Source: Chloroflexota bacterium (lineage in GTDB: Bacteria; Chloroflexota; UBA11872; VXNJ01). Taken from it: 64,000 nucleotides of DNA. Below, one piece after another: positions 9,136-29,563 of this stretch. The notes beneath the pieces are model-generated. The model did no database searches. It was given only the letters and a program-made list of their open reading frames with translations, and had not been told where the DNA came from. The position numbers and the translations under genes were made by a program. Where the stretch lies: assembly GCA_026707405.1 (NCBI GenBank), contig JAPOWW010000007.1:19749-83748 (forward strand), read 5' to 3'. Every line of letters begins with the position of its first letter. Within the stretch, counting starts at the first letter, position 1.

Positions 9136-9240
9136 GGAGCGGGGACCGTGGCTCAAATAAGAGACGTGACTCCCCCGAATAGCCTGCCCCGCACTCGATA
9201 CGGGGCGGGAATCCAGAGACCACCCGCCCAGCCCTAGTCC

Positions 9241-9273
9241 CCATTCGTGGTGAGGCTGTCGAACCATGAACGG
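9241..9273. repeat. REP-like inverted repeat CCATTCGTGGT...ACCATGAACGG
   Basis: Same family as 29621-29678 (GTCGAACCATG-ACGGGA core). Confidence 0.55.
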
Positions 9274-9319
9274 GAGGCGAAACCAGCTGCGGCGCCCCGC
9301 GCCCTTATACGGTGCTATC

Positions 9320-10621
9320 GTGCCGTCAAGCACATTCCAAGTACATAGGGCCCTTCCAATACCAAACCCAGCCAAACTGCCGCAGTGGTCCCTCATCGAG
9401 AACGCGACCAGCGTCGTCGAGTCCGACCAGCGGGTCCTCTGCGCGTGGCTCGGCGGCAGCTTCGGCGAAGCTACAGCCGATAGATGGTCTGACGTCGACT
9501 TCCGGCTTGTCATCGGCGACGGCGATTTCCAAGACTTCGTCGACGCCGACCTGGGCCTGCTTGAACGAATATCCCCCGTCGTCGGCGCGCGAGCGCGGCG
9601 AACCGCGGGCGGTGAGACGCTCCGGGTCGTTCTCTTCGAGGGGGCCGCTAGAGCCGACTTCCTGTACATAACCGAGTCCGGCGCGACATCCCGCCCCGGG
9701 GAGCGGTCCCACCTCCTCCTCGACAGAGCGGGCATCCACCCCACCATCGCCCGCCTGCCCGCCGAGCGGCCCGCCTCTAGAAACGAGATACTCCGCCGAT
9801 TGGAAAACGATATCCCGGCAGCTCTGGCCCGGCACCGCAATGCGATAGCCGTCGGATCGCTCATCGCCGCCTTCGAGGAGCATGTAGTTCTATTGGGATG
9901 CGTCGAAAGCCTGTTCGCGCTGCTTCGGGACCCCGCAAAGGCAGGCAGGCTCGGAAACAAGCACAAGGGGTCTGCCCTAACCGTGGACGACCAGGACAGG
10001 CTCCTGGCAACGCTCACACCCTGGAGCGACCCGGTTGCCGCGTGTTCTTCGCAAGCGCTCGATCCCCTCCTCTCGCTGCTGGGCGAGCTTGCCGAGCGCT
10101 GCGACTGGCTCGAACAGAGTCACACATTCCTCCCAGCCTCGCATGAACCAACCGCTCCCGGTCTCTTCGCCCCGCCGATCTGGACGTCCATCCCCGCCAT
10201 CCTCAAGATGCTCGTTCACGCTCCCGTGCACGCCACCTATTTCAACCGGGGCCATTGGCAGGGAGTCCTCACCGGTGATCGCATTGCGCTCCGGGCCATC
10301 GTGAACCTGTCCTATGCAAGTGAAAACGACGATCTCGAAGGCCCCACCGAGTTCCCCGAGCTGCATCTGACCGGTGAATCCAGCAAGTCGTTAGTCGAGT
10401 GTCTGACCCCCCTCGGAGAATGCACGCCCCGGGCGCTCCTCGAATCGCAGAGCCGCATGTTCGAAGTCTTTGCCGCGGTGGGCCGCGCCGCGGCCCGTCG
10501 GCACTCGCACGCCTATCCGTTCCACCTCGAATCCGAGGTCTTCGACTACCTTGAACGCGAGGGAGCGCTCGTTCGCACGGACATCTGCAATCGCCACAGG
10601 CTCCCGGATGTCCCGCCCTGA
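9320..10621 (+). CDS. Nucleotidyltransferase-like protein (MNT/Pol-beta fold)
   Basis: ORF listed from 9266. GGSFGEATADRWSDVDFRLV matches the GG[SG]-x9-DxD nucleotidyltransferase signature. The ATG at 9266 lies inside a REP-like repeat, so a downstream GTG at 9320 is a more likely start. Confidence 0.7.
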   Translation: MPSSTFQVHRALPIPNPAKLPQWSLIENATSVVESDQRVLCAWLGGSFGEATADRWSDVDFRLVIGDGDFQDFVDADLGLLERISPVVGARARRTAGGETLRVVLFEGAARADFLYITESGATSRPGERSHLLLDRAGIHPTIARLPAERPASRNEILRRLENDIPAALARHRNAIAVGSLIAAFEEHVVLLGCVESLFALLRDPAKAGRLGNKHKGSALTVDDQDRLLATLTPWSDPVAACSSQALDPLLSLLGELAERCDWLEQSHTFLPASHEPTAPGLFAPPIWTSIPAILKMLVHAPVHATYFNRGHWQGVLTGDRIALRAIVNLSYASENDDLEGPTEFPELHLTGESSKSLVECLTPLGECTPRALLESQSRMFEVFAAVGRAAARRHSHAYPFHLESEVFDYLEREGALVRTDICNRHRLPDVPP

Positions 10622-24906: not shown

Positions 24907-24964
24907 AGCATTGGGACTTTACAATCCTCGCTGGGTCACCCCACGAAATCCAGAAAAGAGGCTA

Positions 24965-26881
24965 ATGGCAACGATTCAGGCAAGTCCCGATCTGGCCGCC
25001 GTCGACTTGCCTCGATTCACCGTCCAGCTTCCGGATATCGACTACTACCGATCCAACGTCGACTGCGCGGCTGCATGCCCCGTTCACACCGACGCGCGCG
25101 GCTATGTCACCGCCATCGAGCGCGGCGACTACGAAGAGGCGTGGTGGATAGCCAGGCAGCCGAACCCCTTCGCTTCTATATGCGGGTGGATCTGCGCGGC
25201 GCCGTGTGAGTCGGCCTGCCGGCGCGGCAGGATCGACGAGCCTATCGGCATAAGAGGGCTCAAGCGGTTCGCAAACCAAATGCACGGAGTGCTGCGGAAC
25301 CCGCTCGACCTCGGAAACGACCTCAAGACCCCGCAAAACTCAAAGACTGCGGGATCTATCTCCGCGATCCTGGAATACGCCCGCAAGTTCGCCGACGAGC
25401 GAAAGACCGGCGCCAGCGTTGCCATTGTCGGAGCCGGTCCCGCGGGACTAACCGCCGCGCACGACCTCTCGCTCATGGGGCATCGCAGCACGATATTCGA
25501 AGCGTCGTCCGCGCCCGGCGGCGCAATGTATCTGGCCGTGCCGGAACATCGCGTCGACCGGCAAATTGTGGCCGCCGAATGTCAGGCAATTCTGGAGATG
25601 CCCGGTGTCGATATTCACTACAAAACCAGGATCGGCGAGGACATCGGGCTGTCCGAGTTGCGCGCCCGCTTCGACGCGGTGGTGCTGACCACCGGACTAT
25701 GGAGGCTGGATCGACCGGCCATTCCGGGAGCGAATCTCGCTGGGGTGGTGGATACCACAAGCTTCGTCGCTGACGGCCTCATGGGAGAAAAACCGGCGGT
25801 CGGGGAACATGTCATCGTCATCGGTGACGACGATTCCGCTTTCGACGCCGCGCGCTCGGCTGTCCGCTTGCAGCTCGCGGCGGGCAAGACTATCGACGTA
25901 AAGCTATTCAGCGCCTCCACTACCAAGGCGACGCTCGGCGAGAACCAGCAGCGCGAAGCGGAGCTCGAAGGCATTTCGGTCTATACGGGCTGGGAGTTGG
26001 TGGAATGCCTCGGCAATGGCCACGCCCAATCCGTCAAGTGCAGACCGACGGTGCGCAACCCGGAAGGGATGGCTGACCTAGGTGTCGAGCGAGACCGAGT
26101 CCGCGGGACCTGGGAGGCCGAGCTGCCGGCCGATACCGTGATTCTCTCCAGCCTGCGAGGCGGAGATCTCGGCTACCTCGAAGGAATACCAGGCATCAAA
26201 GTGGATCAGGTCATCAAGGCTGACGCTTCGACCGGTAGAACCGGCGCAACCGGCCTTTACTCCGGTGGCGATGTCGTTTCCGGTCCGGCGACGATAATCG
26301 ACGCCGTCCAGGCCGGTCACGTGATCGCCCGAAGCGTGGAAGAGGACTTTCAGGAACAAAAGCTCGTTGTCAGACGCAGCGGCCGGATGACCGTGATCCC
26401 TCCCAGCGACTATCTCGTCGACGGATATCTGGACATTCCGCGGCAGACTCCTGACAGCCTGGAAACCTTCGAGCGAACGAGCGACACGCCCGTTGAGCTC
26501 GCATATGACGAGCGACAGGCGCGCACCGAAGCGGCGCGCTGCCTCAAATGCAACGTCAACACAGTATTTAGCTCCGACATGTGCATACTCTGCAATCTGT
26601 GCGTCGACGTTTGTCCCTACGATTGCCTTCAGCTGGTCGGGCTGGACAGCCTCAAAGGTCACGGGCTGGACTCGGCAGTTAAGGGGCGCTATGGTCTCGG
26701 ACTAGACTTCTTCCGTGCGAATTCCTACGACATGCAGGAAGTTGGAACCGCCCTCATGAAAGACGATGACGTTTGCACGAGATGCGGTCTTTGTGTGGAA
26801 CGCTGTCCGACCGACGTAATAACGATGGAGTGGTTCTCGTTTGACGAAAGCCTTGAGCTTGCGGGTGCGGGCGCAATCTAG
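24965..26881 (+). CDS. GltD/NfnB-like FAD-dependent oxidoreductase fused to a C-terminal 2x[4Fe-4S] ferredoxin domain
   Basis: CAAACPVHTDARGYVTAIERGDYEEAW...ICGWICAAPCESACRRG; FAD motif VAIVGAGPAGLTAAHDLSLMGH; second Rossmann motif VIVIGDDDSAFDAARSAV; C-terminal CILCNLCVDVCP and CTRCGLCVERCP. ATG at 24965. Confidence 0.9.
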   Translation: MATIQASPDLAAVDLPRFTVQLPDIDYYRSNVDCAAACPVHTDARGYVTAIERGDYEEAWWIARQPNPFASICGWICAAPCESACRRGRIDEPIGIRGLKRFANQMHGVLRNPLDLGNDLKTPQNSKTAGSISAILEYARKFADERKTGASVAIVGAGPAGLTAAHDLSLMGHRSTIFEASSAPGGAMYLAVPEHRVDRQIVAAECQAILEMPGVDIHYKTRIGEDIGLSELRARFDAVVLTTGLWRLDRPAIPGANLAGVVDTTSFVADGLMGEKPAVGEHVIVIGDDDSAFDAARSAVRLQLAAGKTIDVKLFSASTTKATLGENQQREAELEGISVYTGWELVECLGNGHAQSVKCRPTVRNPEGMADLGVERDRVRGTWEAELPADTVILSSLRGGDLGYLEGIPGIKVDQVIKADASTGRTGATGLYSGGDVVSGPATIIDAVQAGHVIARSVEEDFQEQKLVVRRSGRMTVIPPSDYLVDGYLDIPRQTPDSLETFERTSDTPVELAYDERQARTEAARCLKCNVNTVFSSDMCILCNLCVDVCPYDCLQLVGLDSLKGHGLDSAVKGRYGLGLDFFRANSYDMQEVGTALMKDDDVCTRCGLCVERCPTDVITMEWFSFDESLELAGAGAI

Positions 26882-26907
26882 TGGCCGCGCGATCTAGGCG
26901 TATCTAA

Positions 26908-28509
26908 TTGATCGCGTTGCGTAACAGACTGCTCAGATCAATCGGGAGACCCGACGATCCGGAAGACGTGACCGGCCAGGCGCGGGCCGCCGTTGGCAAC
27001 TTCCTCCTGCAAATCCATTCGGTCAAGGTCAGCCGCAATAGCCTCACCTGGAAAAGCCCGTATGGGCTCGGGCTGATCGCCCTCTACATGTTCATAATCC
27101 ATTTCGTTTCTGGTCTTGCTCTGACGTTCTATTACGTGCCCAGCGTCGAGCGGGCCTACTTGAGCATGATCGAACTGCAGTCGGAGGTCACCTTCGGCGC
27201 GTTCATCACGAGCCTGCACAGATGGTCGGCGCACGGAATGATCATCTTCCTAGTCCTCCACATGCTTAGAGTCTTCTATACCGGCGGTTACAAGCCTCCG
27301 CGGCAGCTTAGCTGGATTATTGGAGTGCTGTTGCTGATCGTGACCGGTAAGCTGGCGTTCTCAGGCTATTTGTTGCCCTGGGACCAGCAGGCGCTCTGGT
27401 CAGTGCAAGTCGCGAGTGAGGTCATCCGATCCGGACCCATCTTCGGAGAGCATGTGCAGCGGGTCGTCTTCGGCGGACCTGACATCGGTCAGGCGACGTT
27501 GACGCGCTTCTACACCATGCACATGACGGTGCTGCCGCTACTCTCGCTGGGACTCATAGGGGCCTATATTTGGAGCCTGCGTCAGCACGGAGGCTTCGCC
27601 GCCCCCGCTGACGAAAAGCTGAACGGAGCTCAGACGGCGACCAGCCGCTACCAGACCGGGGGCGGTCTCCAGGGCGAGGGCGCATTCCCGCGAAACTCCG
27701 ACAAGACCTATGCGCTGGTGGGTTTGGTAAGAGGTTCGTCCGCCGCGGCCGGTTCCGGTCCGCGCGGCACGGTCATGGCCTGGCCTGCCGTATTCCTGCT
27801 TGAACTGGCGGTCCTGGCCGGCGTGGTACTCGTAATGGCCGCGATAAGCGCGTTCGCCCACGCGCCGCTCGGACCGCACGCCGACCCGGCGATTCCCCGG
27901 AATCCCGCCCTAATGCCGTGGTTCCTGTCAAGCATTCAGGAACTCACGCTCCACATGCATCCCGTCTTCGGCGGAATCATGATTCCCACCCTGTTTGTCA
28001 CCGGACTGTTCGCAATCCCGTTTATCGACTGGGACCGTTCCGGCTCCGGAGAATGGTTCGGCGGCAGAAGGGGAGTCATAGCCGCATTCGGGTCCGCCCT
28101 GGCGGCCGGTTTTATCTGGATAGTCCTCGAGTGGCTGGACCTGGGACGTAACCTCGCCTTCCGGTTGAAAGAGGCCCTCGACCTGACCAAGCTCACCGGC
28201 GGAGAAACGCCCAAGTCATGGCCTGAGTCATTCGGTTTCTTCGGACTCTACGATCTGACCGAATGGTCCTCGTTCCTTTGGGCCGGACTGATCCCGTTTC
28301 TCATCGTCATGACCCTGCTGCTCGTCATTGGAGCCGCCGCAAAGTTCGTGTTCGGCGGCAATCGCCGCGAGGTCATGATCTCGATATTTACGGCCACGAT
28401 CGTGTCGATAATGGTGCTGACGTTTATAGGGTCGGCGATGCGCGGGACCGACATGAATCTATATGCCCCTTGGGACCGGCCGAACATAATTGAACTTGAC
28501 AGGCAGTAG
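26908..28509 (+). CDS. Cytochrome b (b6 plus subunit IV-like fused), quinol:cytochrome c reductase-type
   Basis: 533 aa: LTFYYVPSVERAY, LHRWSAHGMIIFLVLHMLRVFYTGGYKPPRQLSW, GYLLPWDQQALW, QATLTRFYTMHMTVLPLLSLGLIGAYIW, NPALMPWFLSSIQEL, C-terminal MRGTDMNLYAPW. Confidence 0.93.
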   Translation: MIALRNRLLRSIGRPDDPEDVTGQARAAVGNFLLQIHSVKVSRNSLTWKSPYGLGLIALYMFIIHFVSGLALTFYYVPSVERAYLSMIELQSEVTFGAFITSLHRWSAHGMIIFLVLHMLRVFYTGGYKPPRQLSWIIGVLLLIVTGKLAFSGYLLPWDQQALWSVQVASEVIRSGPIFGEHVQRVVFGGPDIGQATLTRFYTMHMTVLPLLSLGLIGAYIWSLRQHGGFAAPADEKLNGAQTATSRYQTGGGLQGEGAFPRNSDKTYALVGLVRGSSAAAGSGPRGTVMAWPAVFLLELAVLAGVVLVMAAISAFAHAPLGPHADPAIPRNPALMPWFLSSIQELTLHMHPVFGGIMIPTLFVTGLFAIPFIDWDRSGSGEWFGGRRGVIAAFGSALAAGFIWIVLEWLDLGRNLAFRLKEALDLTKLTGGETPKSWPESFGFFGLYDLTEWSSFLWAGLIPFLIVMTLLLVIGAAAKFVFGGNRREVMISIFTATIVSIMVLTFIGSAMRGTDMNLYAPWDRPNIIELDRQ

Positions 28510-28569
28510 TCACCGAAAAAGCAATGGGATTGGCCCTTTGAATAGTCGTTCTGGATCGGAGTTCGCCAC

Positions 28570-29067
28570 GTGCTGAACGTCGAGCGGGCTGCTGGTACCG
28601 ATCCCATCCAGCGGAACCTCTTCCGGCTCCTGTTCGTTTCGGTAGCCGGGGTGCTGGCTCCAGTTACGATCGCCGTTGCGGCAATCGCCTTCCTCTGGAC
28701 GCCGCAGACGTCGGTAGGCAGCGTCAACGCCGGTCCGGTCGAGGACTACAACCTCCTCGATATGGTCCTGTTCGAGGAAGGCGAGTTTTACCTAACCCGG
28801 CTGCCCGACAGATTCCTAGCAATCAACCAGCGGTCCACGCACATGCGCTGCAAGGTCGCCTGGGATGCCCCATCCCGACAGTTCATAAGCCCTTGCGATG
28901 GGTCCGTATTCGACGACAAGGGAGAGGTCGTTCGCGGCCCTGCGCCCAGACCTCTCGGGACCCATGCGATCACCATCGAGAACGGCGAGCTGATTATCGA
29001 AGTCGGAGACGAAAACGTGCGCAAGCGTGACAAGTACGATCCTGGGCAGGGCGCTGAAATTGGTTAG
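28570..29067 (+). CDS. Rieske-fold subunit lacking canonical [2Fe-2S] ligands
   Basis: N-terminal TM, then STHMRC (for CTHLGC), SPCDGSVFD (for CPCHGS), then RGPAPRPLGTHAITIENGELIIEVG. Lies between cytochrome b and cytochrome c genes. Confidence 0.8.
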   Translation: MLNVERAAGTDPIQRNLFRLLFVSVAGVLAPVTIAVAAIAFLWTPQTSVGSVNAGPVEDYNLLDMVLFEEGEFYLTRLPDRFLAINQRSTHMRCKVAWDAPSRQFISPCDGSVFDDKGEVVRGPAPRPLGTHAITIENGELIIEVGDENVRKRDKYDPGQGAEIG

Positions 29068-29563
29068 GCTGAGTACATCCGAGTTTCTAATGGGAGCGGT
29101 GGCGATCCTCGGCGTCGCCGTTGTCGGGGTGGTGATCGCGGCGTGGACTATGGAGCCGTCCCGCATGGCCGGCGCCCAGACCGATTTTCAACCCGTCCGC
29201 CAGCAAATGATGCAGCGGATGGTGGCAGGAACCGGAGCCGTGGCCGAGGTCCCGCAGGCGACGCCTGCGCCGGTCGCCAGTACCGGCGAGTTCGCCGAAG
29301 CTCACGCGCTGTTCCGGTCCAAGGGTTGCATCGCCTGCCATATAGCCCCAGGAATCCCGGAAGCGGTCGGGACCATTGGGCCTGACCTGAATGGTCTCGC
29401 TTCGCGAGCGATGATCGCCGACGTAATGGAGCTCACCGAAGAAAACCTCGCCAAGTGGATCCACGATCCCGTGGGCATGAAGCCCGATACCGTGATGCTC
29501 AACGTCGGCCTCAGCGACCCCGAGGTCGAAACGCTCGTTACCTGGCTACTGTCGCTCAAATAG
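29027..29563 (+). CDS. Membrane-anchored monoheme c-type cytochrome
   Basis: N-terminal TM, FRSKGCIACHIAPGIPEAVGTIGPDLNGLASR, KWIHDPVGMKPDTVMLNVGLSDPEVETLVTWLLSLK. Exact start uncertain (overlaps the Rieske-like ORF). Confidence 0.87.
   Translation: MTSTILGRALKLVRLSTSEFLMGAVAILGVAVVGVVIAAWTMEPSRMAGAQTDFQPVRQQMMQRMVAGTGAVAEVPQATPAPVASTGEFAEAHALFRSKGCIACHIAPGIPEAVGTIGPDLNGLASRAMIADVMELTEENLAKWIHDPVGMKPDTVMLNVGLSDPEVETLVTWLLSLK

Follow-up and report, generated by a model that had tools for sequence, protein, structure and literature searches.

Joint loss of a heme bH ligand and of Rieske cluster ligands in a flavoprotein-linked Rieske/cytochrome b operon under purifying selection in a Chloroflexota genus

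In a genus of uncultured Chloroflexota, an operon for a Rieske/cytochrome b complex, a relative of respiratory complex III, encodes a cytochrome b that has lost one of the ligands of heme bH and a Rieske-type subunit that has lost most ligands of its [2Fe-2S] cluster, yet the cytochrome b core and the Rieske subunit are under strong purifying selection, and decay of the operon is disfavoured. It is very likely that the encoded complex is selected and does not bifurcate electrons. Complexes of this family are commonly defined by their bis-His bH heme and their Rieske cluster: A lineage that has lost a ligand of the former and the ligands of the latter and yet keeps the proteins under strong selection would show how a bifurcating complex can be converted to another use. 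No published report of the combined loss of bH and Rieske ligands was found in the open-access literature.

The operon is located on the + strand at positions 24911-29563 of the window, i. e. of the whole stretch of 64,000 nucleotides that was analysed. According to the open reading frames and to matches in Pfam and NCBIfam, the genes for a flavoprotein, a cytochrome b, a Rieske-type subunit and a cytochrome c lie together:

24911..26881, + strand: flavoprotein with an FAD site, 4Fe-4S motifs (Fer4_20 and two C-terminal Fer4) and a degraded NAD(P) motif (Pfam/NCBIfam)
26908..28509, + strand: cytochrome b of 533 aa, a b6-like half fused to a subunit IV-like half (PF00033, E 1e-41; 1vf5 alignment)
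28570..29067, + strand: Rieske-type subunit with an N-terminal transmembrane segment (phmmer to b6f Rieske proteins; NCBIfam)
29027..29563, + strand: monoheme cytochrome c with an N-terminal membrane segment (PF00034, E 3e-8; sequence)

The cytochrome c has a single CxxCH motif (CIACH at 29327-29341), and by Pfam and sequence a multiheme cytochrome c subunit is absent from the operon.

A preliminary description of the window had claimed, from an ungapped alignment to cytochrome b6, that both histidines of helix B and the first one of helix D are kept and that the second helix-D His, a ligand of heme bH, is replaced by Tyr. This proved to be exact, coordinates included: Residues 52-226 of the cytochrome b align without gaps to the PDB b6 1vf5 (phmmer, E 6e-45), and the ligand positions are occupied as follows:

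27217..27219, + strand: His104 (b6 His86), heme bL ligand in helix B (alignment)
27259..27261, + strand: His118 (b6 His100), remaining heme bH ligand in helix B (alignment)
27520..27522, + strand: His205 (b6 His187), heme bL ligand in helix D, codon CAC (alignment and codon)
27565..27567, + strand: Tyr220 in place of b6 His202, the heme bH ligand in helix D, codon TAT (alignment and codon)

The two bis-His b hemes of the bc1/b6f type require four ligating histidines, of which only three are present. Residue 219, to which the spacing of bc1 would point, is Ala, and the next His of helix D is His227, two turns beyond Tyr220. A misalignment arising from the spacing of 14 in bc1 versus 15 in b6 was considered and rejected, since with Ala at residue 219 a His is found in neither register.

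Among the sequences compared, the replacement is confined to the window's genus. The comparison, with cytochromes b of the same class and phylum, was widened stepwise from 31 rows to 76 and then to 103 distinct helix B-D cores, i. e. 102 relatives (Chloroflexota and one cyanobacterial b6) and the core of the genus itself, and in this sample, which was drawn from the sequences that match the window protein most closely and is not representative of all cytochromes b, position 202 is His in 102 cores and Tyr only in that of the genus, while positions 86, 100 and 187 are His in all 103. The same Tyr, likewise encoded by TAT, is found in an independent MAG of the other available species, G001 (also named MAG COS1_bin_21, JAPOVO). 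A sequencing error or a lone variant was rejected as well, as both the Tyr and the Rieske changes recur in that MAG. The preliminary description had named orthologs with His and a Tyr standing alone as a finding that would speak against it; other genera do have His, but the Tyr is shared by two species. Two further residues, Lys148 (helix C, b6 position 130; 27349-27351) and His65 (helix A, b6 position 47; 27100-27102), occur only in the window's genus among the compared sequences; by helix register, both are probably nearer to the level of bL than to that of bH. AlphaFold2 models built from two sequences were discarded (pLDDT 36 for the cytochrome b and 44 for the Rieske subunit); bH may be His/Tyr-ligated, five-coordinate or absent.

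The changes in the Rieske subunit had been missed in the preliminary description. Both species have STHMRC...SPCDGS in place of CxHxxC...CPCHGS, and three of the four [2Fe-2S] ligands are lost:

28834..28836, + strand: Ser89 in place of the first box-1 ligand Cys (alignment to the b6f Rieske protein 7zxy)
28888..28890, + strand: Ser107 in place of the box-2 ligand Cys (same alignment)
28897..28899, + strand: Asp110 in place of the box-2 ligand His (same alignment)

The ligand set of two Cys and two His that is typical of bc1/b6f Rieske proteins is thus not found, whereas every other Rieske homologue of the compared set has canonical boxes. Replacement of one Rieske ligand abolishes the cluster. 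In the alignment to 7zxy, the ligand His91 is retained, and so are cysteines 94 and 109 of the disulfide. The codon of Asp110 differs between the species, GAT in one and GAC in the other. The Pfam Rieske model does not match the window's subunit but does match the proteins of G003 and G002.

These two genomes represent sister genera of the same family. They have the same operon with separate genes for cytochrome b and subunit IV, a His at b6 position 202 and intact Rieske boxes, and in the cytochrome b tree the two Tyr sequences are placed beside them with support of 100/99; the length of their stem is 1.92 changes per column. Since the sister-genus orthologues are intact and the tree groups them in this way, both the Tyr and the loss of the Rieske ligands are most simply explained as derived in the window's genus. 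Other losses appear to be older. The Cys that carries heme cn (b6 Cys35) is Gly across the family, and Cys in flavoprotein-linked cytochromes b outside it. Similarly, the NAD(P) motif of the flavoprotein, its second Rossmann motif, reads GDDDSAFD without YRR in the window versus GGG(Y/F)TAMD...YRR in 14 other Chloroflexota homologues, and it is degraded family-wide (GGAQDAID in G003, GGCNRSIY in G002). The losses would thus have been stepwise: The family as a whole would have lost the Cys of heme cn and the NAD(P) motif, and the genus a bH ligand and the Rieske ligands. This series provides a testable path of conversion. In the PEWY region of the Qo site, direct reading of the sequences gives LMPWFLSSIQELT for the window and KVPWFFANVQELL for G003, and the PEWY Glu is absent in both.

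The closest described complexes are the Rieske/cytochrome b complexes with NAD(P) oxidoreductase of anammox bacteria (Kuenenia Kuste4569-4574 and Kustd1480-1485; PMC12954380). They share with the window a b6-like cytochrome b, a subunit IV-like protein, a Rieske protein, a c-type cytochrome and, in the cytoplasm, an FAD/Fe-S oxidoreductase that has PDB 9bp5 as a relative: As in the anammox type, a cytoplasmic FAD/4Fe-4S oxidoreductase is encoded beside the cytochrome b, the best PDB relative of the window's flavoprotein is 9bov/9bp5, and the same entries have been reported as relatives of the anammox oxidoreductase subunit (PMC12954380). However, the Kuenenia cytochromes c are multiheme while that of the window has one heme motif, and the Kuenenia Rieske proteins ligate their cluster canonically, by two His and two Cys, with potentials above +300 mV (PMC12954380). 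Unlike in these complexes, the NAD(P) motif has been lost in the window together with cluster ligands, a bH ligand and the Cys of heme cn. The cytochrome b6f/bc1 complexes are related through the homologous cytochrome b (ungapped to 1vf5), the subunit IV half and the Rieske fold, but differ in three respects: In the window, b6 His202 is Tyr, three of the four Rieske ligands are replaced, and cytochrome b is fused to subunit IV. By homology and operon structure, the window's complex is a descendant of the Rieske/cytochrome b group; we do not file it as a bc1/b6f or an anammox-type member because the ligands and the NAD(P) motif that define these types were looked for and are not there. In many Chloroflexota (loci L039, L085, L088-L095, L101 and others), cytochrome b genes adjoin genes for flavoproteins whose NAD(P) motif is intact, and flavoprotein-linked Rieske/cytochrome b complexes are therefore not confined to anammox bacteria.

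As two genomes of the genus are available, the strength of selection is given by one pairwise comparison (Nei-Gojobori): dN/dS is 0.018 for residues 45-240 of the cytochrome b, 0.030 for the soluble domain of the Rieske subunit, 0.068 for the cytochrome c and 0.146 for the flavoprotein; a neighbouring decarboxylase-like gene has a value of 0.074. The gene-wide dS between the two species is 0.34-0.54. All reading frames of the operon are open in both. The purifying selection covers the subunits that keep both bL ligands, His118 and the c-heme motif as well as the FAD/4Fe-4S protein.

The genome, which is 94.5% complete, contains no further cytochrome b at E<=1. It encodes a caa3-type oxidase, and one NrfD gene adjoins genes for QrcB/QrcC-like proteins and cytochrome c, a cluster that resembles alternative complex III (ACIII) and may encode an ACIII-like quinol oxidase. 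At this locus (L078, G000:C3, 4231-11125), the gene after the QrcB/QrcC-like, NrfD and cytochrome c genes may encode a flavoprotein like that of succinate dehydrogenase. A pentaheme subunit was not seen in the cluster.

How might such a complex work? A Q-cycle is unlikely because the losses of the Rieske and bH ligands affect both branches of quinol bifurcation; both arms are affected together in both species, whereas the sister-genus orthologues are intact. We tentatively favour a genus-specific, flavoprotein-linked derivative that works as a one-track wire via an altered bH. The [2Fe-2S] cluster would be absent, and the role of the Rieske fold would be structural or that of a docking subunit. 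Heme bH would persist but be altered, with His118 as the ligand of one face while the other is bound by Tyr220 or left open, and electrons would pass from the cytoplasmic flavoprotein via the altered bH and bL to the periplasmic cytochrome c and on to the caa3 oxidase, while the ACIII-like complex would oxidize menaquinol alongside. His118 is unchanged in the genus, even though 12 of the 59 columns that are otherwise conserved are altered there. That this residue was retained over a long branch suggests continued use of the bH pocket, and for this reason we prefer, with modest confidence, a linear path on which electrons run from the flavoprotein over an altered bH to the cytochrome c. The degraded NAD(P) motif of the flavoprotein speaks against the wire, as it leaves the electron donor without an assignment, and we know of no precedent for direct transfer from bL to cytochrome c without the Rieske shuttle. 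The preliminary description had held that a Tyr-ligated or missing bH heme would break or rewire transmembrane electron transfer; given the Rieske losses in the genus and the NAD(P) and heme cn losses in the family, rewiring is better supported than breakage.

The altered His ligand of heme bH has a counterpart in the H212N and H212K mutants of Rhodobacter capsulatus bc1: H212K retains a low-spin heme, whereas H212N is a heme bH knock-out (PMC4807273; PMC4330944). These mutants were made in the laboratory and have an intact Rieske cluster, whereas the window combines a natural Tyr in two species with the loss of Rieske ligands. Pintscher et al. stated that no natural Met or Lys ligands are known for hemes within integral membrane proteins, and that natural variants are to be expected (PMC4807273). 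The full scenario of a natural His/Tyr-ligated or five-coordinate transmembrane heme b, a clusterless Rieske protein with a new role and a linear conduit with bifurcation abandoned is possible but, taken as a whole, rather unlikely.

The H212N phenotype weighs against the wire, as a Tyr may likewise mean that there is no heme, and it is an argument for a close rival that we regard as nearly as likely, i. e. that heme bH is absent. The complex would then be a scaffold: In the N-side pocket vacated by hemes cn and bH, electrons would be exchanged between menaquinone and the cytoplasmic flavoprotein, and on the P side bL, the cytochrome c and the clusterless Rieske protein would form a separate or structural module. 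The loss of the heme cn Cys in the family is in line with this idea, and the ACIII-like genes can take over the transfer from quinol to cytochrome c. However, His118, with which the missing ligand would have paired from helix D, is kept on the long branch, and the constraint on the bL ligands and the c-heme motif would be needless for a pure anchor.

It is improbable that unconventional ligands keep the cofactors in a complex that still bifurcates, with another residue binding bH and Ser, His, Ser and Asp holding a cluster or metal. His-Lys ligation works in Rhodobacter (PMC4807273), and the genus-specific Lys148 and His65 would be available, although their probable location close to bL speaks against them. 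The Rieske protein has retained its fold, both disulfide cysteines and one ligand His, and its loops are strongly constrained, but three of the four ligands differ where one replacement is enough to abolish the cluster.

The least probable reading, to which we give hardly any weight, is that the operon has been decaying since ACIII took over and that the losses are early pseudogenisation: The loss of multiple cofactor sites, the long stem branch and the lack of any cytochrome b match in genomes of family f2 of the same order could be read in this way, but the open frames in both species and dN/dS values of about 0.02-0.16, similar to the decarboxylase-like neighbour, argue against it. The two genomes of family f2 that were searched for NrfD, G005 and G006, have one such gene each. 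The family also has a Rieske protein of roughly 190-210 aa with a canonical box 1 (L135 in G005, 9149-9775).
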